Virus record (IMG/VR): IMGVR_UViG_3300027714_000036
Location: 1 to 44,882 of that record
From: a virus
Direction: 5' to 3' (one strand)
DNA: 44,882 nucleotides
Below, one piece after another: positions 4,042 through 32,600 of the stretch. The first letter of the stretch is position 1. Every line of letters begins with the position of its first letter. Made by a program: the position numbers and the translations under genes. The notes under the pieces are model-generated. The model was given only the letters and a program-made list of their open reading frames with translations, ran no database searches and was not told where the DNA came from.

Positions 4042-4907
4042 TTTATAGGTATTGAACTAAAATTTGTTGCCCCAGTACAATTGTTAAATGCGTTTACACC
4101 TAAAGGTTCGGGGTTTCTACTCCATAATGCTTCAACAGTTCCCCAATTTGAGGAACCATTATTAGTCGATGACATATTAAATACATTTAAAAAGATACTA
4201 ACATTTTGATTATACTGAAATGTTGGTATGTTTGTTAATGCTCTATTGTTTCTGAATGTTGATGAAAAGTTAATTACAATTGTATTATATCTAAACAACT
4301 CATTTGGTACAGTCACTAAAGATGTACATGCATTGAATGTAGATGCGAATGAAGATACACCCGTATTATTATCAAATAAATTGTTAGGAACTGATGTTAT
4401 CTTTGTAAATGAAAAAGTATCCACAAATTCGTATGCAGATGTTGAAAAAGCAAATAAACCAGATGGTATCGATGTTATACTTGTACCTCTAAATGTATTG
4501 TTCCATTGAGTTACCCTACTTAATCCATTCGTTGCAGATGGTATTGATGTTATGTTTACACATCCGTAGAAATTTAAACTACGAAGTCCAACATTACCCC
4601 AGTCTAATATTGCACTATACAATAATTTATAGGTATCGTTATCTACTCTAAATCCAGGTAATGAACCGATGATTGAAACTGTATAAGTTCCACCAGATGT
4701 ATATGTATGAAAACGATTTGCATCATTTACATTTGTTACAGTACTTTCAGAACTATCACCCCAATCTACTATAATGTTAGGTTGAGTACCAGCTACTGAG
4801 AATAATGGTAACCCATAGGTTTGACCAGAGGATAATGTTAATTGAAATTTAAATGGTTCCACTTCTCCTCCTCCTGATGATGCGATTAATCTCCTTGCTA
4901 TACTCAT
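4032..4907 (-). CDS. BspA/PKD-like surface protein, candidate adhesin
   Basis: 291 residues. Residues about 15-80 look like a PKD-type beta domain: IIVDWGDSSES, then FHTYTSGGTYTVSIIG, with the characteristic DWGD and YTVSI strands. The rest is a run of BspA-type (DUF285-like) leucine-rich units, in which phrases such as ITSIPSGLF, ITSVPNNLF, LVTVPNELF and LTNIPTF alternate with FxxTF turns. Such proteins mediate binding to surfaces in bacteria and are also found in phage distal fibre genes. The protein lies directly after the 3921-residue fibre and before the chaperone-like gene, which fits a receptor-binding or fibre-tip role. That role is inference. An out-of-frame ATG lies 8 bases upstream of the start used. 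Confidence 0.75.
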   Translation of the reverse strand: MSIARRLIASSGGGEVEPFKFQLTLSSGQTYGLPLFSVAGTQPNIIVDWGDSSESTVTNVNDANRFHTYTSGGTYTVSIIGSLPGFRVDNDTYKLLYSAILDWGNVGLRSLNFYGCVNITSIPSATNGLSRVTQWNNTFRGTSITSIPSGLFAFSTSAYEFVDTFSFTKITSVPNNLFDNNTGVSSFASTFNACTSLVTVPNELFRYNTIVINFSSTFRNNRALTNIPTFQYNQNVSIFLNVFNMSSTNNGSSNWGTVEALWSRNPEPLGVNAFNNCTGATNFSSIPINWK

Positions 4908-13900: not shown

Positions 13901-16693
13901 TAACCCAGCTCCACTTCCAGTAAACATAGATGCGGATACGTTACCTGTTATGTTAATTGAATCAGTTACAGTAACTAAACCATCCACATCAACACTACCA
14001 ACAAATGTAGAACCACTATCATTAGAGGTTACTACAAATCCATCATCAGGTGTAACCGTTGCAGAAACTGCTCCACTTATTATTTCAGTAATTACTATAT
14101 CAGTTAATTCAGCACCACTACCTTTAAACGTAGATGCTGATACGAATGTTACAGCTTGCATTGATGTATCCACACTTACTGAACCAGTAAATTGTGAACC
14201 AACTGTTTGAGATACTACTCTAAATCCAGCGTCAGGTGATACATCAGCAATTACAGCTCCACTAACTAATTGTGTAGTTACTATATCAGTTAAATCCCTA
14301 CCACTACCTTTGAATCCAGACGCAGTTACTGCTAAATCAACATTTATAGAACCACTAAATGTAGAACCAAGTTCTACTGATGTTACTGTAAATCCATTTT
14401 CTGGTGTTACAGATGCCGTTATGGAACCAGTAGTAATTTCCGTTGATACAAGTGCATCTTCAGTAAGTGCCGAGCGAGGTATATTAACTAATCCACTACC
14501 ATCTCCTTCAAATACTGAAGATGATATTGAACCACTAATATTAACAGAACCAGTAATCTGAGTTCCTTTTTCTTTCGATTCAATTACGAATCCTTTATTT
14601 ATATCAACTGATGCCGTTATGGAACCAGTTATCAATCGTTTTGAATCGCCTGAGATTATTGAAGAAAATGTATCATCAGATGTTGTTGAGATAGCTGCGA
14701 ATGGTATATCGTTTAATAATGCACCACTACCACTAAAAGAAGAACCGCTAGCTACACCTACATTTCCAAAGAAAGTTGAACCACTTGCGATTGATGTTAC
14801 TATGAATCCATTTTCAGCATCAACAGATGCAGAAACCGAACCACTTACTAATATTTTCGATTCATCAGATACTAATGATGTAATTGAATCTTGTGCATCT
14901 GTTGAAAGTGCTGAAAATGGTATATCTCTTAACTTTTCACCACTACCACTAAATGCCGAGCCACTTTCTACTCTCACTTCTCCAAAGAATGTAGAACCAC
15001 TCTCAACTGAAGTAACTACAAGTCCTTCTTCAAGAGTTACCGATGCTGTAATTGAACCAGTAACAATTTCAGTTGATAATAATGCATCGTTAGTAAGTGC
15101 TGACCGAGGTATATCAAATAACCCCTCACCACTACCACTAAATATTGAACCAGATGATAATGTAACATCACCGAAGAAAGTTGAACCACTTTCTATTGAA
15201 GTTACAACAAATCCGTCATTAGGTGTTACAGAGGCAGTTACACTACCACTAGCAATTCTAAATGCATCTCCAGTAAATGCTGAACGGGGTATATCAAATA
15301 AATCTGCTCCACTACCACTAAAGGTTGAGCCACTTTCTACCCTAACATCCCCAAAGAAAGTTGAACCACTTTCTATTGAAGTTACAACAAATCCATCATC
15401 AGGTGTTACAGAAGCAGTTATACTACCACTTGTTATAAATGTTGATAAATCAGCATCTTCAGTTATTGCTGATCTGGGTATGTTGAATAAATTTGCCCCA
15501 CTACCACTAAATGAACCAGTTTGTAATTTTATATCTCCGAAGAATGTTGAACCACTTTCTATTGAAGTTACCACAAGTCCCTTGCTTGGTGAAACAGATG
15601 CGGTTACGGAACCACTTACTATTACATTGGATAATAAAGCATCTTGTGTAAGTGCTGAACGGGGTATATCAAATAAATCCGCACCACTACCACTAAATAC
15701 TGAACCACTTCCTAATGAAACTCCACCACTTACGAAAAGTGATGAACTAAATTCTGCTCTATCGGTACCCTCTAATTTGAATCCAAAGTTAGGGTCAACA
15801 GATGCGGTAACAGACCCGCTTGTAATGAATGATGATAATAATGCATCAGGGGTTAATGCTGCTTTTGGTATATCAAATAGATTTGCCCCACTACCACTAA
15901 ATACACTACCACTTCCAAGTGATATACCACCACTTACAAATAATGAACCAGTGAATTGTGAACCACTTTCTTTTGATATTACAATAAATCCGGTTTCGTT
16001 ATCTACCGAAGCACTTACTGCACCATCTGCTATTCTTGATGATTGCTCTGCGGCTGGTAGGTTGAATAATTGGCTACCATCTCCGATAAAAAGTGAAGAT
16101 GATACGATTGAAGCGGTTACATTAGTTGTTGAGATATCACCCTCTACGTTTAACGAACCATTCATTCCAACTGAACCAGTAAATTCTTGCAAATCATCTG
16201 GTGTGTTACCAAACTTGTTTGAACCAGATGAGAATATAATTGATGATGATACTATTTCTACTAAGATTTCCCTAGCTACTATTCTATCATCTACATATAA
16301 ATCACCAGTAACTCTAACATCACCATTCACATCCACATCACCATCAAATGATGAAGATACGTTTACTAAGAATCCAGTGTTTGGTGCTATTGATGCGGAT
16401 GCAGACCCACTTATTAATTGACTTGAAAAAGGTAGGTTATTTAATTCGGAACCATCACCTGCAAAAGAACCACTAAATGAACCACTAAATTCTTCTAATT
16501 GGATTTTAGTGATAAATAAACGATTTCCATCTACATCTGACGCAATAAGTGCAACCGAGCCACTTGCGATACTCCCACTTAGTGGAATACCTAAATTAGG
16601 TTCCGCTTCCTGTAGCGATAAATACTCATATCTATCATCCGATACATCCTGCGGACGAACTACTCTTACCTTACCGCTTAATAATTGACTCAT
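4928..16693 (-). CDS. Giant modular fibre protein, 3921 aa, with cupredoxin-like and collagen-like domains
   Basis: One uninterrupted frame. Residues 1-40 (MSQLLSGKVRVVRP...YLSLQEAEPNLG) resemble attachment ends of phage fibres. Residues about 40-2150 hold roughly 27 copies of a module built from SGSG or GDGSG, LF(D/N)IP, SAL, GSVTASV and GFVVTSIESG. A cupredoxin-like domain interrupts them at about 1355-1465. Residues about 2160-2400 contain VTIVHNFDVEYPIVQVY and the ALTASYALNA repeats. Collagen-like Gly-X-Y triplets fill about 2405-2589 and 2702-3745, separated by a second cupredoxin-like domain. The C-terminal 175 residues end with FTLVLNNGGSQAITWPTG and a VFYTYDGGVSYYGFL segment, a tip domain seen in many phage fibres. 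It is probably a trimeric virion-surface fibre. The ATG is preceded by an A-rich leader without a clear Shine-Dalgarno sequence. Confidence 0.9.
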   Translation of the reverse strand: MSQLLSGKVRVVRPQDVSDDRYEYLSLQEAEPNLGIPLSGSIASGSVALIASDVDGNRLFITKIQLEEFSGSFSGSFAGDGSELNNLPFSSQLISGSASASIAPNTGFLVNVSSSFDGDVDVNGDVRVTGDLYVDDRIVAREILVEIVSSSIIFSSGSNKFGNTPDDLQEFTGSVGMNGSLNVEGDISTTNVTASIVSSSLFIGDGSQLFNLPAAEQSSRIADGAVSASVDNETGFIVISKESGSQFTGSLFVSGGISLGSGSVFSGSGANLFDIPKAALTPDALLSSFITSGSVTASVDPNFGFKLEGTDRAEFSSSLFVSGGVSLGSGSVFSGSGADLFDIPRSALTQDALLSNVIVSGSVTASVSPSKGLVVTSIESGSTFFGDIKLQTGSFSGSGANLFNIPRSAITEDADLSTFITSGSITASVTPDDGFVVTSIESGSTFFGDVRVESGSTFSGSGADLFDIPRSAFTGDAFRIASGSVTASVTPNDGFVVTSIESGSTFFGDVTLSSGSIFSGSGEGLFDIPRSALTNDALLSTEIVTGSITASVTLEEGLVVTSVESGSTFFGEVRVESGSAFSGSGEKLRDIPFSALSTDAQDSITSLVSDESKILVSGSVSASVDAENGFIVTSIASGSTFFGNVGVASGSSFSGSGALLNDIPFAAISTTSDDTFSSIISGDSKRLITGSITASVDINKGFVIESKEKGTQITGSVNISGSISSSVFEGDGSGLVNIPRSALTEDALVSTEITTGSITASVTPENGFTVTSVELGSTFSGSINVDLAVTASGFKGSGRDLTDIVTTQLVSGAVIADVSPDAGFRVVSQTVGSQFTGSVSVDTSMQAVTFVSASTFKGSGAELTDIVITEIISGAVSATVTPDDGFVVTSNDSGSTFVGSVDVDGLVTVTDSINITGNVSASMFTGSGAGLFNIPRSALTEEALLISEIVSGSITASVSPDSGFTVTSIESGSTFLGEVRVESGFTFSGSGANLFNIPRSALTEDADLSTFITSGSVTASVTPENGFVVTSIESGSTFSGSVFLSSGSFFSGSGEQLFDIPKSAISDLDTSLIFSGSVSASTRPSTGFTVTSIESGSTFLGEVRVESGSVFSGSGEKLFDIPKSAISDLDSSLIFSGSVTASVEPTDGFIVTSIVSGSTFFGDIKLQTGSFSGSGAKLFDIPRTALTPDALVSTLITSGSATASISPNFGFVVNTSSSIEGDLTVDNDLYVGGAINATELNVTFINSEVIYSSGSNQFGDSITDRQEFTGSINVSGSLNVDDGIIGGDGSGLFNIPQSALTEAATLIATGSVTASVHPIRGFEVNSKSKFEDTLTITGSLIVNNQNRVTDNLTKVITVQSTDAGNKYFVDGILRPLIYLTVGNTYTFNQSDSSNSTHEIRFSTTDDGTHGGGSSYTTDVDNGSIAAGTNGSAVTIEITSETPTTLYYYCLNHSGMGASTLQLNVFPSSNSLIEDDVKISGSLIVTENITANIINAEQYSGSFFSGSGRDLFDIPFSNLTGDAFKIVSGSVTASVSPNDGFVVTSKDSGSQFTGSLFISGGVEINSGSSFSGSGENLFNIPLAAFTPAAQDAVDAILSFEAGRISTGSVTASVDVERGFIVDSVISGSTFSGSLFVSGGISVISGSVFSGSGADLFDIPFTALSQEAINALISTEIKSGSVTASVAPDTGFVVTSIESGSTFTGSVDISGSISASLFEGDGSGLTNIQLANLSLEISQITSGSVTASVDPIEGFVVTSLDSGSTFTGSVDVSGSFTVTGGIITGDGSGITNIDLANLSIDASSIFTGSVTASVKEDGRFIVEDSTHVVKSEFSGSIFVSESVIARAFIGDGSQITNVQAAASPKIASGSATASVESGEFFIVNSFSGSQFTSSVDISGSVSASLFIGDGGGLFNIPLDALEDLQLVKINSGSGEAIIDPDKLFVNVPITASRYDGDGSGLFNIPAESLQDLKLDKIESGSAVAIISPDRGLEINVGVSVSQSLSVSGGLFITGSDVIAASGSTFVGDGSGLSNINIANLAFETSLLESGSATAEISPNLGLQINTSASISGGLSVEKNIYSPIINGGQITGSLYGGYYGEGDAVDRDILIYDDARSKYVPVPESTPTIAEPFTNVTEVTIVHNFDVEYPIVQVYETGSNGMIIPQAIEPLNSNSIKVTFSGLTSGHVVVGSGGSKISGAVSGDNVIGIVPSASRASSALIADTATNVAGLDSASIALLNNLENFVLNEQTASMTVLSSSFALTASYALNAASSDSSGDISSDITASMSVATASYSHYALTASYALNAGEAGGGGDLTSAQTASMYVYSSSFSSIAEFALNAGGSGAGFPFEGYAELTGSLDISGSLIITGSTFIQNLESGSSDFVVTYNETTGRLEKRDIEAAQGADGTSGSSGTSGSSGTSGSSGTSGSSGTSGSDGTSGSSGTSGTSGTSGTSGTSGTSGTSGSSGSSGSSGSSGSSGTSGTTGTSGSSGTSGTSGTSGTSGTSGSSGSSGSSGSSGSSGSSGTTGSHGTSGSSGSSGSSGSGGTSGSSGSSGTSGSSGSSGTSGSSGSSGTSGSSGSSGSSGTSGSTGREGGRLYTVTNNGFNYSFAGYVGNFPTLTLVKGELYYFDVSGVSISHPFAIRLADGDSTSVPGIDNNDTVSGKYGTDVLIKYRVPEDAPNSIVYQCVNHSGMIGTISIVNKNGTSGTSGSSGTSGTSGSSGSSGTSGTSGSSGTSGSSGTSGTSGSAGSAGTSGSSGTSGTSGSSGSSGTSGSSGTSGTSGSSGSSGTSGSSGTSGSSGSSGSSGSSGTSGTSGTSGSSGSSGSSGSSGTSGSSGTSGSSGSSGSSGSSGSSGSSGTSGSSGLSGSNGTSGSSGSSGTSGESGSSGTSGTSGTSGTSGTSGEAGSSGTSGTSGTSGVSGSSGTSGTSGTSGTSGTSGEAGSSGTSGTSGSSGTSGTSGTSGSSGSSGTSGTSGSNGTSGTSGTSGSSGTSGSSGSSGSSGTSGTSGSNGTSGTSGSSGSSGTSGTSGSSGSSGSTGTSGTSGTSGSSGSSGTSGSTGTDGTSGTSGISGSSGTSGTSGSSGSSGTSGSSGSSGTSGTSGSSGQDGTLFGSSGTSGSSGSSGTSGSSGSSGTSGSSGQDGTLFGSSGTAGTSGSSGSSGTSGSSGTTGTSGSSGQDGTFFGSSGSSGTSGSSGSSGTSGSSGTTGTSGSSGQDGTLFGSSGTSGTSGSSGSSGTSGESGSAGTSGSSGQDGTLFGSSGTSGTSGSSGSSGTSGESGSAGTSGQTGTSGQDGTFFGSSGSSGTAGISGSSGTSGLGSSGTSGISGTSGQDGTFFGSSGSSGTSGESGSSGTSGLGSNGTSGISGTSGQDGTLFGSSGSSGTSGSSGSSGTSGLGSNGTSGISGSSGQDGTFFGSSGSSGTSGESGSSGTSGLGSDGTSGTSGSSGQDGTLFGSSGTAGTSGESGSSGTSGLGSSGTSGISGTSGQDGTLFGSSGTSGTSGITGSSGTSGLGTNGTSGSSGQDGTLFGSSGSSGTSGITGSSGTSGLGTNGTSGSSGQDGTLFGSSGSSGTSGESGSSGTSGLGSSGTSGVSGTSGQDGTLFGSSGSSGTSGESGSSGTSGLGSSGTSGISGTSGQDGTLFGSSGSSGTSGAGSSGTSGLSGSFGTSGISGTSGLDGTNFGTSGTAGTSGAGSSGTSGVDGVLGSNGTSGISGLDGTNFGSAGSSGSSGTSGESGSSGTSGAGSSGTSGESITQFGTANDGVVRWDNDLESNYVNTDLVYNGTLLSVTGSVNTTVDLIAGGDLIASGEVSGSTSIHTKNFVELYSTLGTGGSTSIDLTSANNFEYTVNATSTIAFANSPTAPKAFGFTLVLNNGGSQAITWPTGTLWAGGIAPALTASGTDILVFYTYDGGVSYYGFLTAVNLS
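5460..8590 (-). repeat. Long collagen-like array with 17 regular interruptions
   Basis: About 1040 residues of Gly-X-Y triplets, chiefly GTS and GSS. In the C-terminal portion (about 5540-7400) the triplet register is broken 17 times by the phrase DGT(L/F/N)FG, where an extra residue shifts the glycine spacing. The interruptions recur every roughly 30-40 residues, mostly as GQDGTLFGSSG or GQDGTFFGSSG. Confidence 0.85.
8590..8935 (-). other. Cupredoxin-like domain B within the 3921-aa fibre
   Basis: Residues about 2587-2700, inserted between the two collagen-like arrays. The strand pattern runs YTVTNNGFNYSF, PTLTLVKGELYYFDV, ISHPFAIRL, VYQCVNHSGMIGTISI. His2637, Cys2686, His2689 and Met2692 match the His / Cys-x2-His-x2-Met ligand pattern of type 1 copper proteins, with amicyanin-type spacing. 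Copper binding is inferred from motif and spacing only. Confidence 0.7.
8925..9480 (-). repeat. Collagen-like array, N-terminal segment of the 3921-aa fibre
   Basis: About 185 residues of GTS/GSS triplets without the DGTLFG interruptions. The array starts after the phrase AAQGADGTSG and ends at GSTGREGGRLYTV, where the second cupredoxin-like domain begins. Confidence 0.85.
12300..12640 (-). other. Cupredoxin-like domain A within the 3921-aa fibre
   Basis: Residues about 1355-1465, inserted in the SGSG module region. The sequence runs YLTVGNTYTFNQSDSSNS, THEIRFSTT, TTDVDNGSIAAG, TLYYYCLNHSGMGAS. His1397, Cys1449, His1452 and Met1455 form the candidate ligand set (Cys-x2-His-x2-Met). Domains with a YYYC.NHSGMG signature occur in structural proteins of other marine T4-like phages. 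Whether they bind copper is not known to me. Confidence 0.7.
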
Positions 16694-16715: not shown

Positions 16716-17582
16716 TTATTCATTTGCACTTTCCAAAATAGAAAGTACAACTTTTAAATCCTCCGAACCAGAAAATACTAACCCAAAATCTTGCTCTAAT
16801 ACTAATTTTCCGGCCACAACGGGTGATAGTGAATCTCCCTTTGGTATAGGAAAGTTACTAATAAATTCAATTTTTTCTTGTGGTACTCTTGTTGGGTTAT
16901 ATACAGTATCTGCTACTATTGTAAGTAAATCTGTTATTAACGAAATAGAACCACTTTCAGGAACTATACTTTCATCGTATGATTGAGTAAATGTAGTTTG
17001 ATATAATCTAAGTACATCCGCTGAACCAGTTACTGATTCATTTAGTAAAATTTGATTGGTTAGAGTATTTGCGTAAGTGATAGCATCATATGATGATGTC
17101 AATTGAGCATCACCTATGATTAAACTAACTCCGTTTTTATCATAAAATGATAATGCTGCTTTTTTCGTTCTCAATGTACCACCATTTTCGATATCAAACA
17201 CAATACCATCAAATGCAGTATGTATTCTTTCCTCAAATATTGATGATGTAAATGAAAATGGTATATCTTGTAAATTGTTTTGGAATCCAACGTATGCTGC
17301 TGCTTCCTTTTCAATATAAGTTCTATTAATTTCTAATAATGCCGAAGCACTATAAAAACTACCAGTATTTACCACATTTTGTAATTGTGGTTCTGGTATT
17401 TTCCGGTTTGAATCTAATTTTACAGTAACCTCTTCCGTATTGGAATTACTATTATTAGTAATCTGAGCAGATAGAACGATAGTTGAAACCCCACTTGGTG
17501 TGGAATATACAATATCATCTTCACCGGTCAGAGTTGTTACAATCGATTTAAACGCATTTAGCGGTACAAATACATCTGCCAT
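16716..17582 (-). CDS. Virion structural protein, 288 aa, with a probable inserted decayed module
   Basis: The N-terminus MADVFVPLNAFKS, then YSTPSGVSTIVLSAQITN, and the C-terminus GKLVLEQDFGLVFSG with VVLSILES resemble the two ends of the 110-aa virion protein at 2860-3192. The middle contains NRTYIEKEAAAYVGF and AFDGIVFDIENGG. These align with the FIQNETIAYVSS and DAVATDLLYGGN parts of the repeated module in the 5098-aa protein, but without the invariant Cys. The gene sits between the two giants, 41 bases after one and 22 before the other, with an AGGAAAAAG leader. It is probably an adaptor or connector between large fibre components. No enzyme motif is seen. Confidence 0.7.
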   Translation of the reverse strand: MADVFVPLNAFKSIVTTLTGEDDIVYSTPSGVSTIVLSAQITNNSNSNTEEVTVKLDSNRKIPEPQLQNVVNTGSFYSASALLEINRTYIEKEAAAYVGFQNNLQDIPFSFTSSIFEERIHTAFDGIVFDIENGGTLRTKKAALSFYDKNGVSLIIGDAQLTSSYDAITYANTLTNQILLNESVTGSADVLRLYQTTFTQSYDESIVPESGSISLITDLLTIVADTVYNPTRVPQEKIEFISNFPIPKGDSLSPVVAGKLVLEQDFGLVFSGSEDLKVVLSILESANE

Positions 17583-17623: not shown

Positions 17624-20600
17624 TTACCCTTCCAATGCAAGAGAGAATGGTGTAACTAATGAAAATAGTGAACGAGAGAATGTTCTACCCTGCAATGTAC
17701 CAGTTGCCTGATTAATTACAAGTCCCGTACCAATTCTAAAATCCCCAAGTTCATTACCTGAAGTAAAGAACACTCTACCACCAGCTATTTCAGTAATTTC
17801 TTTAGTTGGGTCAGGTACACCAGCACCACCCTGATTAGGAGGTAATGCTTTATAAGTTACACCAGCACCAGCGTATGAGAAATCATGTCCAGTTGTAATA
17901 ATTAATGAACCAAATTCTTCTAAAGGTGAGTTTCTCACAATTCGTTGGAATTGAGTTCGTAAATATCGGTTAACATCTGCAGTTTCATATTGTTGGTTAT
18001 TAATTACCTCTGCGGCTGAACCATATACACCAGTGTAATACGATTCTGCAGCTGCAATACTTCTTTCATTTCCACCATAGTATAAATCAGTTGCGATTGC
18101 ATCTACGATAAACCCAGTATCTCTATAACACTTATCTTCGTTATATTCGAAATTTGGAAATGCCGCATTTGTATATGAAATTGCAATTGATTGTAATTCT
18201 TTCTTACTAGCTCTTAAATAATCAACTGATTGTCTAGTTTGGAATGATGCTCTTGTCAATTGTTCTTTTAAGATTACTTTTTCAGATAATCCTTTAGCAA
18301 AATCAATACCATCAGTTGTTTGTGGCTTTTGTTCAGTAGTTGCTACTGAAGGAATATAGTAATAGAATGTTCCAGCCTGAACACTTCTTTCATTTCCACC
18401 ATAAACTAAATCCGTTCTAACTGCATCGATGATATATCCAATATCTCTACTACAACTAGCTTCATTATATTCAAACTCACTCCAAGATGAACTTAGGAAT
18501 GCGATTGTTTCTTTCTGAATAAACGTTTTATTACCAACTAACAAATCAGCTCCTACTAATACGGATGCCGATGGTTGTAAGAAAGTTTCATTCTTAATTA
18601 CCTTAGTTGATAAGTTACCAGCATATCTGATACCATCAACAGTTGGGTCTAATTGAGATGTAGTTGAAGGAACTCCCTTTGCAGTTGCTGCAGATGGGAA
18701 TAAATAATAGAATGAACCAGCATTTACACTTCGTTCATTTCCACCATAGTATAAATCCGTTGCAGTTGCGTCAATTAAATGACCAACATCTCTTTTACAC
18801 TTATCTTCGTTATAGAATACACCACTCCAAGAAGAAGAAACATATGCTATTACTTCGTTTTGAATAAACTCTTTATTTTCTCTTAATGAGTTCCAAGAAG
18901 ATGATACTTCATTTGAAGCTGTTACAAATTCTATATTTTGAACCAATTCTTGCGAAATACCACTAGCGTATTTTATACCATCTAAAGTAGGATATAATTG
19001 AGCGTTTACAGTTGGCGATGTATCACCAGCAACAGTAGCCGATGAAGGATATTTGTAATAAAATTCTCCAGCAGTTCTACTTCTCTCATTTCCACCATAT
19101 AGGAAATCAGTTGCTACTGCATCTAAGATATATCCAGTATCTCTACTACAACTCGCTTCGTTATATTCAAAATTACTCCAAGAAGAAGAAACATATGATA
19201 TAACTTCCGTCTGAATAAATTCTCTATTCTTTAATATCGTTTCATTACCAGCAATTCTTTCAACTGATGGTGAAACGAATATTTTATTTACAATTAACTT
19301 CTCTACTAAATCACCAGCATATTCAATACCAGTTGTAGTTGGTTCTAATTCTGAAGTTGTAGCGTTCGATGGGTATCTATAATAGAAATCACCAGCAGTT
19401 ACACTTCTCTCATTTCCACCATATAAAATATCAGTAGAAACTGCATCTACAATGTGCCCCACATCTCTCTTACAAGTTTCTTCGTTGTATCCGAATGAAC
19501 TCCAAGAAGAAGATATGTAAGCGATTGATTCTGATTGAATGAACTCTTTATTATCTCTAATTAAGTTATGTGATGTAACGTTCTCTATTGAAGAGGTAAC
19601 GTATGTTACACTTTGTATTATGTTGTTAGCCAACCTACTAGCGTATCGAATTCCATCTAATGTTTGATTCAATTGAGTACCCTGTGCTTGTGATGGGAAA
19701 TCATAATAATATTTTCCATTAAATACAGATGATGAAACTGAACCGAATAATAAATCTTCAGCTGCTCCACTAACGATTGAACCAATATCTCTACTACAAC
19801 TTGATTCGTTATAAGATGCTTCTGACCAAGACGATGATAAATATGCAATAGTTTCCGATTGTATAAATGGTATGTTTGATTTTAACAATGAATAAGCTTC
19901 TAACGTTTCTGAATCACCAATTGATGATGTATATTCAGATGTTATTGGTAAAGAACCAGTTCCATTTACAACAATATCCATTACAATACCAAATGATGAA
20001 CTTACAGCGTTTAATACCGATACTTCAGTTGTTCCACTTCCTAATGTTTGAGTTTCTGATGTAGTTTTTATTACATTTTCAGAATTCTCAGTTAATGTTG
20101 GAATTGTTAAAGTATTTTGTAATACAATTTCGTTAACTAAATCAGATATATAAGTTACTGCATCAGTTGTTTCACCTAATTGAACATTAGTTGCTTTAGA
20201 TGGGAATCTATAATAGAATTCACCAGCAGTTAATGTTCTTTGGTTACCACCATATTTTAAATCAGTTATTACTGCATCTACGATAAATCCAGTATCTCTA
20301 CTACAACTTACTTCATTGTATTGTAAGTTTGGATATTTAGCGTTTACAAACGCAACAGTTTCATTTTGAATAAATCCTCTATTCAATTTAACTGAATCAT
20401 AAACAAAATCAATTTCATTTGATGATGTTACAAATATATTTCCACCAACTAATTCAGTTGATAATCCTTTTACATAATTGATTGCCGTTACAGTTGGGTC
20501 TTTTTGTTGAGATACCGATGGTACTCCTCCAACAATTGCCGCTGATGGGTAATCATAATAATATTTACCTGCGGTGATTGTTCTTTCATTACCACCATAT

Positions 20601-23600
20601 AATAAATCAGTTGCAACTGCATCTACGATATACCCTACATCTCTCTTACAAGTTAATTCAGGGTAATCAAATCCACTCCAAGATGATGATACAAATTCAA
20701 TTGTTTCATTTTGGATAAATTCTTTGTTTGCTATTAATAAATCATAAGAAGCAGATACCTCAGCCGATGCCGTAGTGTATTCGTAGTTTCTTACAATATT
20801 TTGTACCAAATTACCAGCATACTTAATAGCTGTTACAGTTTGATTCAATTGTGAACCAGTTGCTGCAGATGGGAATTCATAGTAGAACTTAGTGTTTACA
20901 ACTGATGCTGAATTTGAATTCCAAATTAAATCCTCAGCTGCTCCACTTACTATTAAACCTACATCTCTTCTACATTTTTCCTCATCATACACAAATGTAC
21001 TCCAAGAAGAACTCATAAACAATATAGTTTCCTCTTTTATGAATTCAATGTTTTCTTTTATTAAATTGTAAGCCAATACAGTCTTAGGTGCATCTACCAA
21101 TTTACTATAATCGGTAATTGTAGGTAATGAACCAGTTCCGTTTGTTAAACCATTTATCACCATTCCAAATGATGATGAAACAATTTTAGATTGAATCTTA
21201 TCCGCTCCACTAGCTGATACGTATTGTTCTACGTTTCCAACTTTTATTAAGTTAGAAATATTTGTGTTATTAGATACCATTGTTGGTATTACACTAACAC
21301 CATTAGTAACTATATTTTCAACTAACCCAGCTCTATCACTTACAATATCGATTTCAACAGATGAACCAGTAACTAAAGAAGTATATTGGCTTGTATCCGT
21401 TACTTTAATGTTTGAATTAACATTATTTACCAATGTTGGTAGTGAACCAGTTCCATTTGTTATGATTTCGTTTATTTGTGTAAACGAACCAGTTGTAGTT
21501 GCTAATTGATTAGAAATATCATATGTACCACTTACTTTTACATATGAACCAGAGGTTATATTTTGTGGATTATCTAATTCAGAAGTTTGGAAATGCTTAG
21601 CAATAGTGAATGGGATACTATCAGAACCTAATCTAATAATATCAGTAATCATATTAATACTAGCAGATACAATACCAACCTGAGTATCACCTCCACTTAA
21701 TGAAGATGTGGTTTGAGTTGCGTTTGTTACTTTTATTAATGAATCAATACTTCTTACTTCATATGGTAACGTACTTATTGAATTACCATCAGTTCTCTTA
21801 AATGTGTGAAGTGATTGAGGTAAGTGTTTTACAGCTCCAGAAGATGCTGATACAAATGTATGAACCGATTGTGGTAAGTGTTTTACTGCTTCATTGGATG
21901 CTGATACAAATGTATGTATAGAACCAGAAGCACTTCCAGCGTTTCCTACGTTAATTGTAAACGTTCCATTCTGTCTTTCTAATCCATTAGATACAGCCGA
22001 TACAAATGTATGTGGTGTATCATATGATGAAGAACCTATATTGATTTCAAATGAGTTTGTTGTTACATTTGAAATTTCCAACCATCTTCCGCTTGGGAAG
22101 TCAGTTCCAGCTCTTGGATACGATTTACCTACAACGTTTCCATCTAATAAACAACTAAACGTTAATGAGTTATCCGAAAGTTTAATATAATCTCCGTTTG
22201 AGAAACCATGTTCAGATATAGTTAAACTAACTAATCCAGATGATGGTGTATATGTTGAATCAGATACAGTATGCTGTGTTGTACCAACTGAAGTAATTTC
22301 AATTGATTTTCCAGCATAAGGGTCTGAACCTAATCTCGGATAAGAATGAGTTGTTGTATCACTATCCATATCACAAGTAAATGCGATAGATTGATTTTCC
22401 AATACAACACTTCTTCCAACACCCAAACCAAATGATTCAGAAACAGTTAGAATCATATCACCAGTCAATGCGTTATAATCAACATTAGTTGGTGTGAATG
22501 TTTTGTTTGGACCAGATACACCTACATTAAAAGTTAACGTAGTATCGGTTACCGAAGTAATTGGCAAAGAACGTACTGCAAATGGGTCTATTCCAACTCT
22601 AGGATAAGATTTAGTAGATTGATTATCATCCATATCACAAGTGAATGCGAATGATTGAGGTTTCATAACGATACCCTCACCTACACTTAAACTATGAGTA
22701 CCAACAGTTACTACAAACTCACCATTAGATGGGTCGTATGAAGCAGTAGTTGGATTGAATTCTACATTAGGACCTGATTTACCTACATTTATAGTAACAG
22801 TATTATCAGTTACCGATTGGATACCTAATCTACTATTGTAAGCAGGTTGTCCGATTGAAGGTAACTTATGTTCACTTCTATTACCATCCATATCACAAGT
22901 GAATACGAATGATTCCGGTTTGATGTAAAGTCCATTCGTTGGTGTTAATGTATGACTTGGTATAGTCATTACAAAATCACCATTAGAAGGTTCATATGTT
23001 GCGGTTGTTGGTGTAAATGATTTTATTCCATCAGTTATAATTCCACTAACCATTTCAAATGATGAACTGATATTAGTTATGTTACTTCCACTAATTGAAA
23101 GTGAACCACTATATTGTTCAGTATCATTGAATCTAATATTACTATTTGTATTTTTTGTTATTAAAGGAACTACTAAATCAACATTAGTGATTAATTTATT
23201 AACCATCACTCTAGCGTAATCAATTGCAGTAGTTGTTTCAGTTAACTCCAATGAAGTTGTTTGTGATGGATATCTATAATAATAATCACCAGCTACAATA
23301 CTTCTTTCATTACCACCCCATAATAAATCGGTTGCAATAGCATCAACGATATATCCAGTATCTCTTCTACACTTAACTCTATCATAAGTAAAGTATGGAT
23401 ACAATTGGTCTATAAATTCAGTTACGTTATTTTGTACTAATTTTTTGTTATCTAAAATTGTAGTGTATGCTGATATCTTTTCTGAACTAGCGTTTACCAA
23501 CGTTGTACTTTGTACTATCTTATTAGCTAAACCAGCCGCATGTAATATACCAGTTATTGTTTGGTCTGATTGTGTTGTGGTTGCTTGAGATGGATATAGG

Positions 23601-26600
23601 TAATAAAATTCACCAGCGTTTACACTTCTCTGATTACCACCATATAATACATCCGTTGCAACTGCATCAATAACATGCCCAACATCTCTTTTACATTTAA
23701 TTTCATCATATTCGAAATTACTCCAAGAAGAACTCATATATGAAATTACTTCAGTTTGGATTAAATCCCTATTATCGAATAATAAACTATGAGCGGTTTG
23801 TCTTTCTATTGAAGCACTTACCAATGTTACATTGTTTATTACTTTGTTTGTTAATCGTTGAGCGTATTCAATACCATCAACAGTTTGATTTAATTGAGAA
23901 CCAGTAGCAGATGATGGGTACAGGTAATAAAATTCTCCTGCATTAACACTTCTCTCATTACCACCATATACGAAATCAGTTACAACTGCATCAATTATAT
24001 ATCCAGTATCTCTTCTACACTTAGCTTCATTATATTCAAATGTACTCCAAGATGATGATAAGAACTGAATTGTTTCCTCTTGAATCAAACTTCTATTTTG
24101 GGTAACCAATTCAGCAACTTGTAGTGTTTGTAAAGATGGTAACACTAATAAGTTACTTTGTATAATTTCGTTAGATAATCTTCTAGCGTAATTAATAGCA
24201 TCAACAGTTTGATTCAATTGTGAACCAGTTGCAGATGAAGGATTACTATAATAGAAAGATGCGGCTTGAACTGCTCTTTCGTTACCACCATATAATACAT
24301 CAGTTGCTGCTGCATCTATAATATGTCCTATATCTCTTCTACATAAACCTTCCGAATAACTAAAGTCACTCCAAGAAGATGAAATATATTCAATAGTTTC
24401 ATTTTGGATAAGTAATTTATTATCTAATAATAGAGTATGTGATGTTGTTGCTTCAGAAGAAGCAGTAACAAACTCTATGTTTTGAATTAATTTTTGTGTG
24501 AGTTTACTAGCATACTCAATACCATCCAATGTTTGATTTAACTGAGATGTTTCAGCTTGAGATGGATACTCTAAATAGTAGTTTCCATTTACTGCTGATG
24601 CTGATAATGTGTTCCAAACTAAATCTTCAGCTGCTCCACTAATAATTAATCCAATATCCCTACCACACTTAGATTCATCATATGAAGAAGTACTCCAAGA
24701 TGATGATAGATAAGCGAGAGTTTCACTTTGAATAAATGGAATATTATTTTTAATAATTTCATATGCCGCTATTGTAGATTCATCAGTAGAACGAATTTCA
24801 TATAGTTCAGGATGCTTTGTTACACTTACTGAATTTTGTTTAGTTCTAACAAATGTATGAACTGATTGTGGTAAGTGTTTAATTGCTCCATTTGATGCTG
24901 ATACAAATGTATGAGGTGATTGTGGTTCATGCTTTACTGCATTATTTGATGCTGATACGAATGTGTGTATCGAACCAGAAGCACTACCTGCATCTCCTAC
25001 ATTTATAGTAAACGTACCATCTTGTCTTTCCAAACCATTTGTTGTAGCTGATACAAATGTATGAGCTGATGTGTATGGTGAAGAACCTATATTGATATCA
25101 AATTTGTTTGATGTTACATTAGATATTTCTAACCATCTTCCAGATGGATAATCTATTCCAGTTCTAGGATATGATTTCTCAACACTATTACCATCTAATA
25201 AACAAGTATAAGTTAAACCATTATCATCAATTTTTATATAATCACCATTACTGAAATTATGATTAACTATTGTTATAGTGACATCACCAGTAGATGCATT
25301 ATAAGGAGCATCAGTTATAGTATGGGATGTAGTTCCAACTGAAGTAATAACTATTGATTGTTCAGCGTAAGGGTCAGAACCACTTCTTGGATAAGAGTGA
25401 GTTGATACATTACTATCTTGGTCACAAGTGAAAGCAAACGATTCATTTTCTAATACTACACTTCTTCCTATTCCCAATCCTAATGATTCAGAAACAGTTA
25501 AAATCATATCACCAGTCAATGCGTTATAATTAACATCAGTTGGTGTAAAGTATTTATTTGGACCAGATACCCCTACGTTAACGGTCATTGTAGTATCAGT
25601 TATACCAATAATCTTCATTGAACGACCCGCATATGGGTCAATTCCGATTCTTGGATATGATTTAGTAGATTGATTGTTATCCATATCACAAGTAAATGCG
25701 AATGATTGAGGGTCTAATATAATTCCCTCACCAACACTTAAACTATGGCTTGCAACAGTCATTACGAAATCACCAGTTGATGGGTCGTAACTAGCAGTAG
25801 TTGGATTGAACGATACATTAGGTCCAGATACTCCAACATTTACAGTTATAGTATCATCAGTTGTTGATGTGATTTCTAATTCAGTATTATAAGCAGGTTG
25901 ACCAACGCCAGGTAAATTATGTTCAGTTTTATTATTATCCATATCACAAGTAAATGTGAATGATTCTGGATTTAAATAAATTGAATCCGATACTTCAAAT
26001 ATATGGTTTGGTATAGTAATTACAAAATTACCATTAGATGGGTCATAACTAGCACTTGTTGGTGTAGATGATGATATACCACTTTTTACAATATCATAAA
26101 CAATCGATACTGATTGAGATACAAACTCTATATTTTCCAATGTTCCACTTACCGAAGATGAAATGTATTGAGATACATCCGTTACCTTTATAGTATTTGC
26201 TACATTTGAAATTTCATTAGGTAAACTACTTATTGAATTTTCAGTAGTTCTAACAAATGTATGATTTGATTGAGGTAAGTGTTTTACAGCCCCATTCGAT
26301 GCCGATACAAAAGTATGAACTGATTGAGGTAAATGTTTTACTGCATCAATCGATGATGATACAAATGTATGGATTGAACCAGATGCACTACCACCGTCAC
26401 CTACATTAATTGTAAAGGTACCATCTTGTCTTTCTAATCCATTTGTTGTAGCTGATACAAATGTATGAGCTGCTGTATATGGAGAAGAACCAATATTAAT
26501 ATCAAATGTATTTGTAGTTATGTTAGAAATCTCTAGCCATCTACCAGATGGATAATCTATTCCAGTTCTTGGATAACTCTTTTGAGTTGTATTACCATCT

Positions 26601-29600
26601 AATATACAAGTATAAGTTAATGAATTATCAGAAAGTTTAATGTAGTCACCATTACTGAAATTATGATTAGAGATTGTTATAGTAACATCCCCATTTGATG
26701 CATCATAAGGTGCATCGATTACAGTGTGTGATGATTTACCAACTGATGAAATTACAATTGATTGTTCAGCATAAGGGTCAGAACCACTTCTTGGGTAAGA
26801 GTGAGTAGTTGTGTTTCCATCTTGGTCACAAGTAAATGCGAACGATTCGTTTTCTAATACTACACTTCTACCAATTCCTAAACCAAATGATTCAGAAACA
26901 GTTAAAATCATATCTCCAGTCAATGCATTATAATCAACATCAGTTGGAGTAAAATATTTATTCGGACCTGAAGTTCCTACATTAACCGTCATTGTTGTAT
27001 CGGTTATTGAAGTAATCTTCATTGAACGACCAGCGTATGGGTCTATACCCAATCGAGGGTAAGATTTAACTGATTGGTCATTATCCATATCACAAGTAAA
27101 TGCGAATGATTCTGCATCCATTATTATTCCTTCACCAACACTTAAACTATGACTTGTAACAGTCATTACGAAATCACCAGTTGATGGGTCATACGATGCG
27201 GTTGTTGGAGTGAATTCTACGTTTGGTCCCGATATACCAACGTTAACACTTATAGTATTATTGGTTACAGATGTTATAATTAACTTATCAGTATAGGCAA
27301 TTTGACCAATTGATGGTAAATTGTGTTCAGTTTTGTTATTATCCATATCACAAGTAAATGTGAATGATTCCGGTCTTAGGTAAATACTATCAGAAACACT
27401 ATAATTGTGATTTGGGATAGTCATTACGAATTCACCATCAGCAGGATTGTATGTTGCGGTAGTTGGTGTATAACCAATACCATTTTCCAATACATCAATT
27501 ACCACAGCGAATGATGAACTTACATAAGTTATTTCACTTAATTGAGGTGATACTGATGATGTATATTGAGTTGTATTAGTAACCTTAACCAATTCAGATG
27601 TATTTTCTACTACTATTGGTAATTTACTTACCGAATTTGTAGTTGTTCTTACAAACGTATGATTGGATTGAGGTAAATGTTGTATTGCTGAATTTGATGC
27701 CGATACAAAAGTATGTGGTGATTGTGGTTCATGCTTCACAGCGTTAGCTGATGCCGATACAAAAGTATGTAAAGAATTTTGAGCAGTTCCAGCATTTCCA
27801 ACATTAATTGTAAATGTACCAGTTTGTCTTTTTATTCCACCAGTAGTTGCAGATACAAATGTATGTGCTCCAGTGTACGATGATGAACCTATATTAATAT
27901 CAAACGTATCAGTTGTTACATTTGAAATTTGAATCCATCTTCCGCTTGGGTAATCATATCCAGCTCGTGGGTATGATTTAGTTACAGTATTACCATCTAA
28001 TACACAACTATAAGTTAATCCACCATCTTCAACTTTAATATAATCTCCATTACTAAACGTATGACCAGCTATTGTTAAAGTAACTAAACCAGTTGATGCA
28101 TTATATGGAGCCTTTGTTGGTGTGTGTGATGTAGTTCCAACCGAAGTTATTACAATTGATTTTCCAGCATATGGGTCAGAACCTAATCTCGGATAAGAAT
28201 GAGTTGTAGAATCACCATCTTGGTCACAAGTGAAAGCAAAAGATTCATTTTCTAATACTACACTTCTACCTATTCCTAAACCATGTTGACCAACAGTCAC
28301 TAACATATCTCCATTTGATGCATTGTAATTAACATCGGTTGGAGTAAAGTATTTATTTGGACCAGATGCACCAACATTAAATGTTAATGTAGTATCGGTT
28401 ACTGATGTGATTGGAATAGAACGTACTGCGAATGGGTCAATACCAACTCTTGGATATGATTTAACCGATTGGTCATTATCCATATCACAAGTGAAAGCAA
28501 ATGATTCATTAGAAAGTACAATGCCTTCTCCTACACTTAAACTATGTTTACCAACAGTTGCACTAAATTCACCAGTTGCTGGGTCATAAGATGCATTGGT
28601 TGGATTAAAGTTTATATTAGGGCCTGATTTACCAACGTTTACACTTATGGTATTATCAGTTATTGAGTTTATTGTTAATTGTCCAGCATAAGCAGGTTGA
28701 CCAACTGAAGGTAATTTATGTTCAGTTCTATTACCGTCCATATCACAAGTGAATACAAATGATTCAGATTCTAAGTAAATTCTATCACCAACATATAAAC
28801 CATGTTGAGAAATAGTCATTACAAATTCCCCATCAGCAGGATTGTATGTTGCTGTTGTAGGAGTAAATACACCTACTCCGTTTTTTAATATATCAATTGA
28901 AGTTGCGAATGATGAACTGATTTCATTTGATTCGTTTAAAGAAGCCGTATATGTTAATGTATATTGCTCTATATTAGATATCTTAATTGCATCGGAGTTG
29001 TTTGTCACAACCTCAACTAATCCAATAGATGGTATTTCAACATATTTTTGAGTATCCGATAATGGCAACTCATCCACAATATTAATTATACCACTAGCAT
29101 TTACATTATTTCCGTTTACATAGAATAATCTATCAGGTGCATCAAATGGAACTATAAATGTAATTGTTCCGAATGTAGAACCATTATTAGTAATTCCATC
29201 ATTATATCTGTATTTTGTATCAGTACTTCTATTAGTTGCTATAATAAATGGTTGTGTTTCACTTAGTATTGCATTTACATTACTTAATGAATTTATTGAG
29301 AATGTATATAAATCCCCCCTCTTTAATGTAAGGGTAGGGTCTTTTACACTATCATCAAATGAACCAGTATCCTCACCTAATATTTTACCATCAACATCAT
29401 CAAACTTTTGTATTTGTGTTTTAGCTATACTAAAACTATCATCATATAATGTTACCACCTCAAAGTAAGTAGATGCATCGGATGAACCGATTATATTTAA
29501 ACTACCACTAACACCATATTGTATGATATTGGATACTGTTGAGAATGATGATGATACTTTATTTATAGTTGTTGAATCTACTGATATGGATGATGATATT

Positions 29601-32600
29601 TGTACACCACTTCCAAACTTAATACCAGCTTCAGTATTCTTTACTAAAGTTATATCAGATGGAATTGTAGTACCAATTGTAGTTGTTACTAAGTTATCAC
29701 CATATGAACTTTTAGGAATACCAACAGTTGATATTGGATTACCCTTAGAATCAGTTCCAATGGTTTGTTCAGTTTCAATTGAACTACCACTTTCAATAAT
29801 TTTTATTACAGTATCGAAATTAGATGTTACTAAATTTTCAGTAACTTCTGTTGCTACATTATCGGATGTAATTTGAGCTATACCACTAACATTTAATGGG
29901 TTTTCTAAATTCCAAATATAATCCTCTGAATTACCAGCGATTGAACTTAGTACCGAATCCGTACCATATCTAATGATATCTTCAATTATGCCAAATGATT
30001 GAGAAACAATTTGTACCTCAGTATCGGTTGCAGATATTGAACCAGTTGTTGGTTCAAATGAAGTTACTCTAATATTACCAGCATCGTTTAGAATTACCTG
30101 TGGAGTTTCTAATACAATAGATTTCGCTATTGCTTTAGTAAATTCCTTAGTATATCTAATTGCTTCTAATGTTTCCTCTAATTGAGTTGTATTAGCAATT
30201 GATGGAAATTTAAAGTAGTACAATCCAGCTAACTCACTTCGTTCGTTACCACCATATAATAAATCAGTTATCACATTATCAACAATATATCCAACATCTC
30301 GTCTACACTTAACTCTATCATATGAGAAGTTAGGGTATTGAGTATCGATATATGTAGTTGTTTCATTTTGGATTAATGAACGATTTTCTTTTATCAAATT
30401 AACTGCAGCAAGTACTGATGCTGAAGGTAATATGAATGTTTCATTATTAGCCAACTTTTGAGTAATACGTTTTGCATATTTAACTGCATCTAACGTTTGT
30501 TGTAATTGACCCGTAGTTCTATTATCAACAATTGCTAATGATGGATATTGATAGTAAAACTCACCAGCTATTACACTTCGTTCGTTACCACCATAATGTA
30601 TATCAGTTGCTACGGCATCTAAGATATATCCAATATCTCTTTTACATTTAGTATCACTATATTCAAATTCACTCCAAGAAGAAGAAATGTATGCAATTGC
30701 TTCCCCTCTAACGAAATCTTTGTTTTGATAGATTACATCATATGCATTATCCAACTCACTAGAAGCCTCTGAAAACACCTTACCATCTAATATATTGATT
30801 GCCAACTCACTAGCATACTTTACACCAGTTAATGTTGGGTCTTTTTCGGTTGTTGTTGCGTTTGAAGGGAATTGGTAATAGAATACTCCACTACGAATTG
30901 ATTCTTCATTTCCACCAAATAATAAATCATGTGCTGATGATGAGATTATGAAACCTACATCTCTTTTACACGTTTCTTGATTGTATGGATGTTCACTCCA
31001 AGAAGAACTTAAATATGCAATAGTTTCATCTTGTATGAATGGTATATTTTCTATTAATAATGTATATGCATTCTGAACATCAACCGATGGATTTTCAACC
31101 GAACTACTTAAAACAGTAGTTGGTAATGAACCAGTTCCATTTGCTAAAATATCATATACAAGTGAAAAGGATGAACTTACTGTTTGGATAGTTTCCAATG
31201 ATGAAGTTACATCAGTTTCATATATTGTAGTATCAGTAAACTTATAACCAGCCATAGTACTACTACTAACAATAGGTGATGCAGTTAATCCGTTTTGGAT
31301 AATACTAATTACAGTATCAAATTTATCTACAATAGATTTACTCGTATCGTTGGATACAGCAAAAGTTGTGTATTCAGTTATACCACCTACCTTTATGGAT
31401 GATGATACATTATTTGCTTGTACGTATGATGATGTAGCATTGTTACCTCTTTCAATGATATCTATTATAATATCAAAGTTAGTATCCATTAATTGTACAT
31501 CAGTATTAGAAGCCGTAGCTTCATTTACATATTGTATATTACCACCTACATTATATAATGATTCAGGACCATACCCACCTTTACCACTTTTAGCAAGTAA
31601 CTTAGGTACATTTGTGATACCATCTTCTACAATAGAACTTACTATTCTAAAATCTGATTTAACTCTATCAGCTACATCCGTAGTTGAATCCTCTGATACA
31701 AAATACTGAGGTACCTCAGTTAGGTCAGTTAATCGTTTTCCCTTATCTGTATTCGGAACTAAATCAGGTATTGCAGTTAATCCATTTTTAATGGTATCAA
31801 CAATAATTGAATAGTTATTTTGTACATTAAAAAATGCATCTCCATTTCCACCACTACCAGTAATAAATCGAGAACCACTAGCATACATACCAAAATCACC
31901 AAACGATGTGTTTGAGTTAAGAAGTACTGCTTGTCCACCATCTATAACCTTTACTGAGTATGCTGAGAAGTTTGTGAAGAAGGATACTAATTGAATGAAC
32001 CCCCTACCAACAACTTGACAACCTACACCATTGGGTGCAATCTGAGTGTATGCATCTAATACCATAGATGCTAATGGTGAATCTGGGTGTATCTTATTTC
32101 CATCTACATTTAAACCACCACCCCCAGCAGGAATATCTTCATACTTTTCTAAGAATGAATTCTCTTGATTTGAAATCATAGAACAATTCTGAACGTATGG
32201 TGATGTTGTAATAAATGCGTTAGGAGCAAATGCAACAGCGAATCCCTTTTCGGATACATCAACTGATGGGAATACTCTTAAATTTCCAAAAGTCATTTCA
32301 GATAAGTAGTTACCACTATTTACCCAAAATAAATCTTCGTTTTCGTTTTTAGCAAGAACTTTAGTTACCCTTAAACCACTTCCCCAAACAGTTGTGTTTT
32401 TTGGAAGTTCAATTGGGTTTTCTTCTAAGTAAGTACCCGTATCAATTTTAATAGCAAATCCACTAAATAAAGAACCAGTTGGTAACCCATATCTACCATC
32501 ATCCCCATCAGTTGCAATCTTAGCTGCCTTCTTAATCGTTCTTAATGAGAATTGGGGAGTTCTACCATCGTTATCATCACTACCATTAGTAGATGATACA

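Follow-up and report, generated by a model that had tools for sequence, protein, structure and literature searches.

Patterned arrays of probable phycobiliprotein-fold modules in a giant fibre-type protein from a viral genome record

In phycobiliproteins, the CXRD motif binds the chromophore, the Cys covalently and the other two residues through hydrogen bonds (PMC10151467). Genes for bilin synthesis and attachment are also carried by phages. The co-occurrence of heme oxygenase (HO) and bilin reductase genes in phages has been called "still enigmatic", with bilin biosynthesis-associated globins (BBAGs) as one possible partner (PMC11480375), and the benefit of a bilin reductase is described as unclear in Prochlorococcus phages, whose hosts lack standard phycobilisomes (PMC2984593). 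CpeT was reported in 31 of 153 cyanophage genomes, all of them from myocyanophages (PMC10452541), and light-dependent adsorption has been reported for several cyanomyoviruses (PMC2984593). Here we describe a stretch of viral DNA of 44,882 nucleotides (IMG/VR virus record IMGVR_UViG_3300027714_000036, positions 1 to 44,882; hereafter the window), in which a giant gene encodes a 5098-amino-acid (aa) protein with 17 Cys-x-Arg-Asp (C-x-R-D) modules. These modules very probably adopt the phycobiliprotein fold and are remotely homologous to phycobiliproteins; that modules of this fold are also set in patterned arrays is, as a joint claim, probable to a slightly lower degree.

Probable kinship of the modules to phycobiliproteins

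A C-x-R-D-x-G search of the 5098-aa protein, followed by alignment, bore out the original prediction of 17 modules in four clusters of 3, 5, 3 and 6. The module Cys residues lie at aa 651, 759 and 872 (cluster A), 2752, 2860, 2968, 3076 and 3184 (cluster B), 3983, 4091 and 4206 (cluster C), and 4375, 4483, 4591, 4708, 4823 and 4931 (cluster D), and the modules together extend over window positions 17912-31078. The aligned copies are 108-117 residues long and hold one Cys each, accounting for 17 of the 35 Cys of the protein. The first, middle and last copies of a cluster are called openers, internal copies and closers below. The protein, most likely a virion fibre, is similar to the PHROG tail-fibre and virion structural families phrog_5342, phrog_4527 and phrog_17885. 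Scanned in pieces against Pfam, it gave no phycobilisome match and only scattered others, of which DUF1643 alone exceeded its cut-off; a DNA-level search against phages returned no match.

Cluster C with both flanks (aa 3890-4345) was modelled with AlphaFold2 from 90 alignment rows, giving five helices per module with a predicted local distance difference test (pLDDT) of 86.6 and a predicted template modelling score (pTM) of 0.85. VIA aligned this model to 995 chains, with Z >= 5 in 110 and Z >= 8 in 104 of these. Of the 50 matches listed, with Z from 12.4 to 16.9, titles identify 46 as phycobiliproteins or phycobilisome proteins; the others are 8u0f (a phycobiliprotein by sequence), two structures of smURFP, an engineered allophycocyanin, and one de novo designed near-infrared protein (8j98). 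Many of the VIA alignments cover model residues 162-163 to 429, and neighbouring modules of the model may be domain-swapped. A second model covers the closer of cluster C and the linker behind it (aa 4163-4336) and was built from 90 rows, distant phage units among them; it has pLDDT 83.1 and pTM 0.81. All 50 matches listed for this model are phycobiliproteins, both in Foldseek (best E 1.3e-3, TM to query 0.53-0.64) and in VIA (Z 14.2-16.3, root-mean-square deviation 1.8-2.5 over 128-141 residues), and in the VIA matches listed model residues 1-156 are collinear with phycobiliprotein chain residues 28-33 to 171-184. Since the linker helix takes the place of helix H, closer and linker together make up the whole phycobiliprotein fold minus the X-Y hairpin. 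The globin-like fold is complete from helix A to helix H in the closer with H, and openers and internal copies are without H; the helices are presumably those named A-B-E-F-G-H in phycobiliproteins. Against predicted viral proteins, Foldseek gave 17 matches at E <= 0.001, the named ones being cyanophage or uncultured-phage structural proteins.

The sequence evidence agrees with the structural evidence, and the two lines are only partly interdependent. A phycobiliprotein set was assembled from 80 cyanobacterial loci found with a beta-phycocyanin query and 30 more found through PF00502 in four genomes. In hhalign, four phage profiles matched 52 phycobiliproteins with probabilities of 88.8-95.9% and local scores of 40.5-58.6, compared with 10.6-10.9 for reversed phycobiliproteins and 24.0-30.5 for the best over 40 column shuffles each. 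The broad phage-module profile (profile A3) reached 95.9% against 35 cyanobacterial phycobiliproteins, and the 17-module profile 84.3%. The alignment of the broad profile is gapless from the Cys to the E-F loop, and C-x-R-D falls on C82-x-R84-D85. Searched against PDB, the broad profile retrieved 26 sequences at E <= 10, of which 25 are phycocyanins (best E 0.005), and in three printed alignments the module Cys lies on the Cys of the phycocyanin C-x-R-D. The 17-module profile had a single weak PDB match, R-phycocyanin at E 0.83, on its C-A-R-D motif, and a three-module profile (A2) had none. PF00502 matched modules in three of five phage records, with a best E of 3.2e-5.

Several results count against this kinship. 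PF00502 exceeded its curated cut-off of 22.2 bits in none of the five records (best 17.6 bits, window 12.7 bits), and at a lenient E <= 10 it also matched in three of 14 control genomes, unrelated ones, besides Synechococcus. Foldseek on the cluster model was weak, with phycoerythrin on top at E 0.45 and 14 of the 50 matches listed sharing the fold, the rest being unrelated; on the closer with helix H, no E fell under 0.001. The N-terminal X-Y hairpin is missing: the module begins at helix A, and the domain model aligns from chain residue 28-33 in all 50 matches listed. Asp13, Arg91 and Tyr95, which serve the contact between alpha and beta chains, are invariant in our phycobiliprotein alignment (A4). 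Among 745 distinct distant modules, the Arg91 column is Asp in 620 and Arg in 4, and the Tyr95 column is Tyr in 96; Asp13 lies ahead of the aligned part. Given the hairpin, Arg91 and the Pfam cut-off, the domain is not a light-harvesting phycobiliprotein. Very probably it belongs to the wider phycobiliprotein and bilin-binding-globin fold.

Positional order within the clusters

The terminal copies of each cluster differ from the rest exactly as had been described. All four openers begin with the special form NI(P/E)FI(Q/K)xET (NIPFIQDET, NIPFIQSET, NIEFIKEET and NIPFIQSET) and carry S-S/G-x-A-x-D-L in place of DAVATDL; YGGNERS is absent altogether from three of them, and the first has FGGNEES. 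The four closers have YPNF, YPYF, YPNL and FPNF where other copies have SSSWS, and neither variant occurs in any of the nine internal copies. The expected grouping by position was recovered in a tree of the 17 modules, in which the openers fall on one side of one branch (support 68/93) and the closers on one side of another (94/90), neither branch being starred. The three position labels need only two changes on this tree, the smallest number possible, and none of 200 shuffles did as well. Clusters A, B, C and D were each rejected as a clade (approximately unbiased test, p 4.7e-4, 6e-18, 4.4e-4 and 8.9e-4, respectively). With openers grouping together, closers grouping together and no cluster forming a clade, the type of a module is set by its position rather than by its neighbourhood, and an origin of the clusters by local tandem duplication is rejected.

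Relatives were collected by searching viral contigs with the cluster D region and with cluster B, which yielded 42 and 16 loci. Of 100 distinct clusters, 16 touching a locus or frame end were left out, and the remaining 84 were reduced to 61 at <90% identity, with 258 modules and two to seven modules per cluster; the five distant loci L062-L066 were kept out of the count. The marks scored were T at Cys+13 and, at the position of the SSSW end, W or Y/F-P. All 61 first copies are non-T and W, all 136 middle copies have T and W, and 60 of the 61 last copies have T and Y/F-P, the exception being the third cluster of L061, which has NANLS and is likewise without W. The T/non-T mark was picked after inspecting the relatives and the Y/F-P mark beforehand, and a blind test with profiles built from the 17 window modules alone is free of that bias. 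It assigned the correct class to 247 of the 258 modules, and to 187 of the 198 whose identity to every window module is below 75%; the 11 modules misassigned were five openers and six closers taken for internal copies, and none of the 136 internal copies was called terminal. The opener-internal-closer grammar is therefore real and common to the whole lineage. Tree, blind test and the 61 clusters, nearly all of which come from relatives, support the proposal that each cluster, a putative rod, is a defined structure with special ends and not a random expansion.

The predicted structural difference at the cluster ends is present on the C-terminal side. By profile placement in the 61 clusters, helix H follows 43 of the 47 closers that lie away from the end of their protein, none of the 61 openers and none of the 136 internal copies. 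This helix lies outside the 108-aa module and is part of the unit, a point that the original prediction overlooked together with the phycobiliprotein-like nature of the modules. On the fold, the opener is altered in the E-F loop and the C-terminal half of helix E, its positions Cys+9 and Cys+13 being the Arg91 and Tyr95 columns of phycobiliproteins in the gapless alignment, and the closer is altered where helix B ends. Each of the 197 adjacent module pairs in the 61 clusters combines W in the leading module with T in the following one.

These observations suggest how an array might be built. The modules would be phycobiliprotein-fold domains with helices A-B-E-F-G, and H in the closers, and each cluster would be a head-to-tail array in which the closer is a complete domain with its own helix H and the openers and internal copies are H-less copies in front of it. 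Every module with a successor bears the B-helix end SSSW, the putative "knob", which the closer lacks; every module with a predecessor bears the E-helix and E-F-loop form T-D-L...GGNERS, the putative "socket", which the opener lacks. A directional contact from the B-helix end of one module to the E-helix end of the next would lead to complementary end marks on openers and closers. Whether successive modules meet by such a knob-socket contact, as their sequence marks suggest, is in our estimate an even question.

As the units of the distant fibres L062 and L063 (140-189 aa) have an H-like stretch in the linker, and the window marks are specific to the lineage (W at the knob position and T at Cys+13 are present in 9 and 19 of the 745 distant modules, respectively), it may be that the complete closer is the older form and that the openers and internal copies were added without H. 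Scored against the distant profile, closers reach 102.1 bits, internal copies 99.9 bits (p 0.017) and openers 89.5 bits. The notion of capped ends held in that the terminal copies are special; a closer added as a cap is disfavoured, the closer being a complete domain and YP the commonest pair at the knob position of distant modules. Some counts weaken this account: YP and FP together occur in only 165 of the 745 distant modules, and helix H is missing behind four closers away from the end of the protein and behind all 14 closers at the end. Apart from any pigment, the opener-internal-closer rule represents a compact natural code for domain arrays with defined ends. In the distant fibre L063 (1176-10544, aa 860-2187), LGTN-type units of 140-144 aa are mixed with YGGN-type units of about 162 aa, an order that is perhaps another positional code.

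The bilin motif, bilin genes and competing explanations

Cys, Arg and Asp of the C-x-R-D motif are kept in all 258 modules of the giant proteins of the window lineage, and in the 745 distant modules at 97.2%, 91.9% and 98.9%, respectively. Arg is lost in 15 of the 21 distant modules without Cys versus 45 of the 724 with it, and Asp in 8 of 21 versus 0 of 724; all three residues are lost in seven modules versus 0.02 expected under independence, the rows being related and not independent events. The 288-aa neighbour of the giant gene contains the same domain by profile, and Cys, Arg and Asp are missing from all 21 of its distinct versions. The fold therefore seems not to need the triad, which raises the question of why the giant protein retains it so strictly. 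Because the motif is kept in every giant-protein module, the arrays may hold a covalently bound linear tetrapyrrole; where the phage has HO, bilin reductase and CpeT, these would produce or attach it, and otherwise the host would supply it. Judged from sequence, bilin binding by the modules is plausible and putative, somewhat short of an even chance. A pigmented virion, in which the 17 modules of each fibre chain carry covalent phycobilins produced by phage HO and reductase, with CpeT or the modules themselves performing the attachment, is a possibility that we regard as similarly tentative, and a use of such pigment in the virion, for example in light-linked adsorption, is unlikely.

The distribution of bilin genes bears on this possibility. 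HO and bilin reductase occur together in four of 13 window-lineage records, with CpeT in three of these, and the four carriers all belong to the five lineage records above 140 kb that were examined. Since one fibre architecture is common to three of the carriers, they represent two independent lineages. No PsbA/PsbD family member was found in any of nine lineage records searched. In L189 (905-3551) and L190 (908-3540), HO and bilin reductase genes overlapping by about 12 bases are followed in series by genes that we read as GroES-like and GroEL-like. In a collection of 50,697 phage records, tblastn with two module-bearing queries matched 141 and 168 records, all of them named Synechococcus, Prochlorococcus, Cyanophage or Marine virus. 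Among nine named phage genomes, modules occur in six and CpeT in five, and all five CpeT genomes have modules; the selection is biased, since module matches led to W01-W05 and W08, the N-terminal region to W06, the proteome to W07 and the head protein to W09. The Prochlorococcus phage P-HM1 has CpeT and two C-x-R-D modules in gp7, and in S-MbCM7 (L068: 7172-7702, 9721-20895) and S-RSM4 (L070: 6614-7138, 8092-21540) cpeT lies 1-2 kb upstream of a module-bearing fibre gene.

Other records speak against a pigment. Nine of the 13 lineage records, all but one under 110 kb, have no HO, reductase or CpeT; HO and bilin reductase are present in P-SSM2, in which no module occurs; CpeT is absent from DSL-LC03, which carries modules; no module was found in three records retrieved by bilin reductase (40-57 kb fragments); and of 16 distant module-bearing records, two have bilin reductase and six CpeT. 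Moreover, BBAG-2 globins without CXRD still bind biliverdin (PMC10151467), so that there is no strict coupling between the triad and bilin binding. No HO, bilin reductase or CpeT was found in the window (a 44.9-kb record), and no module in Mel-JY01. Proteomic proof of a module-bearing protein in a virion was sought and none was found; S-CREM2, whose virion proteome is published (PMC10665884), has an S-type lyase and no module, and its proteome accordingly gives no evidence on the modules.

The alternative that fares best, with a chance a little below one half, is that the phycobiliprotein-fold modules are pigment-free building blocks or stalks, whose fold comes from a bilin-binding globin and whose Cys, Arg and Asp pack or cap helix E. 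It would account for the presence of modules in fibre-type and gp7-type baseplate proteins, for the many module-bearing records without the bilin genes searched for, and for the loss of the X-Y hairpin and Arg91. It accounts less well for a triad that tends to vanish as a whole, and for its retention throughout the giant proteins when the neighbour protein keeps the profile match without it. A reading in which the modules bind some other planar molecule (heme, say, or free biliverdin), perhaps to shield against light or to carry iron, would fit the globin relationship and the large lineage record with HO and reductase and without CpeT (G006), and is improbable, the motif retained being the one for covalent phycobilin attachment. 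Convergence or model bias, by which a generic five-helix module would resemble globins and carry C-x-R-D by chance, could draw on the middling Z that helical repeats often reach, on the Pfam scores below the cut-off and on the weak Foldseek result for the cluster model; it is very improbable in view of sequence-only evidence in register, namely the hhalign probability of 95.9% against shuffled and reversed controls and the phycocyanins that make up 25 of 26 PDB sequences. Equally remote is a role of the single Cys in inter-chain disulfides that lock a multi-chain fibre, with openers and closers marking the chain register: one Cys per module, 17 of 35 in the protein, would suit it, and the Arg and Asp, the joint loss and the match of the Cys to the bilin Cys are left unexplained.

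If the virion is indeed pigmented, "auxiliary" bilin genes would serve the phage's own fibre and not, or not only, the host phycobilisome, and a coloured fibre could join in the light-dependent adsorption of cyanomyoviruses. A phage-borne acceptor with an attachment motif makes the question of what phages gain from bilin genes directly testable.

Feature map, neighbouring genes and comparison with known systems

Table 1. Features of the giant gene and its neighbour in the window (all on the minus strand).
Feature	Position	Strand	Basis or remark
Giant fibre-type protein, 5098 aa	17624..32920	-	Open reading frame; PHROG tail-fibre / virion structural families
Cluster A opener (A1), CKRD	30755..31078	-	Motif search, alignment, tree
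Cluster A internal (A2), CKRD	30416..30754	-	Motif search, alignment
Cluster A closer (A3), CRRD	30089..30415	-	Motif search, alignment; PF00502 match, E 0.0026 at 30128-30505, below cut-off
Helix H of cluster A closer (IVSQSFGIIEDIIRYG)	29963..30010	-	Phage-module profile match of closer continues to profile position 159
Cluster B opener (B1), CGRD	24452..24775	-	Motif search, alignment, tree
Cluster B internal copies B2-B4	23480..24451	-	Motif search, alignment
Cluster B closer (B5), CRRD	23153..23479	-	Motif search, alignment, tree
Helix H of cluster B closer (NISSSFEMVSGIITDG)	23027..23074	-	Phage-module profile match
Cluster C opener (C1), CRRD	20759..21082	-	Motif search, alignment, tree
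Cluster C internal (C2), CKRD	20414..20758	-	Motif search, alignment
Cluster C closer (C3), CSRD	20087..20413	-	Motif search, alignment; AlphaFold model of closer + H
Helix H of cluster C closer (VSSSFGIVMDIVVNG)	19961..20005	-	Inside helix 138-157 of the closer + linker model
Cluster D opener (D1), CSRD	19583..19906	-	Motif search, alignment, tree
Cluster D internal copies D2-D5	18239..19582	-	Motif search, alignment
Cluster D closer (D6), CYRD	17912..18238	-	Motif search, alignment; no helix H matched behind D6; C-terminal domain comes next
288-aa neighbour protein, one domain of the same profile, Cys/Arg/Asp all lost	16716..17582	-	Profile E 6.7e-17

Elsewhere in the giant protein, aa 1390-3588 (window 22157-28751, minus strand) contain 16 beta-type modules with F/Y-T-C in four quartets, three of them consecutive and one behind cluster B, each followed by HTFVSA-type repeats, with matches to phrog_1276 and phrog_5342. 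Helix-H-like profile matches without a preceding module, several of them in series, occur at aa 396-620, 1008-1158 and 3721-3953 (in a numbering that runs 6 above the protein's own). Beside the first giant gene lies a second, at 4928-16693 (minus strand), whose 3921-aa fibre-type product has many GSGxxLFDIPxSAL repeats and then long GTSGSSG collagen-like tracts. A protein with leucine-rich-type repeats (by eye) and a phrog_9915 match is encoded at 4032-4907 (minus strand), adjoining a tail-fibre assembly-type protein at 3580-4041. The major head protein (38506-40125, minus strand) belongs to a T4-related lineage with Flavobacterium, Microcystis and Rhodothermus phages; its best matches are an uncultured 484-kb phage (54%), Flavobacterium phages and Microcystis phage Mel-JY01 (about 50%) and RM378 (40%), and its nearest relatives are not Kyanoviridae, the T4-like cyanophages. 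The supposed link to T4-like cyanophages consequently holds for the module, which is common to cyanophage fibres, and not for the head protein.

With phycobiliproteins such as phycocyanin and phycoerythrin (PF00502), the modules have in common the predicted helices A-B-E-F-G-H and the C-x-R-D in register in helix E. They differ in forming tandem arrays within one giant viral chain, in their H-less copies, in the missing X-Y hairpin, in the Arg91 column, which is mostly Asp, and in scores below the Pfam cut-off. The same module, with C-x-R-D mostly kept, occurs in cyanophage fibre and gp7 baseplate proteins (phrog_4527, phrog_5342; S-RSM4, S-MbCM7, P-HM1). The analysis gives a probable identity, that of a phycobiliprotein relative, to a recurrent domain of marine phage fibres and baseplate proteins that previously had no name. 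Unlike the window lineage, the printed distant cyanophage fibre loci (L062-L066) have modules without the opener-internal-closer order. In a literature search by title and the start of the abstract, with most subscription journals outside its coverage, no phycobiliprotein-like virion protein was reported.

The auxiliary genes that phages are known to carry, HO with PcyA, PcyX or PebS, and CpeT, belong to the same enzyme families as those in some large relatives of the window. In the accessible portions of published discussions, phage bilin genes are related to host phycobilisomes, phytochrome, iron supply and BBAGs, and no virion acceptor is named there (PMC11480375, PMC10452541). The BBAGs offer a further parallel in that they bind bilins outside light harvesting: BBAG-1 and BBAG-3 carry CXRD like the modules, take up bilins without the help of a lyase and show a link to the genes for HO and bilin reductase (PMC10151467). 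BBAGs are bacterial, whereas the arrays described here lie in a phage fibre, and HO and reductase are about 140 kb from the fibre gene in the lineage record G002.

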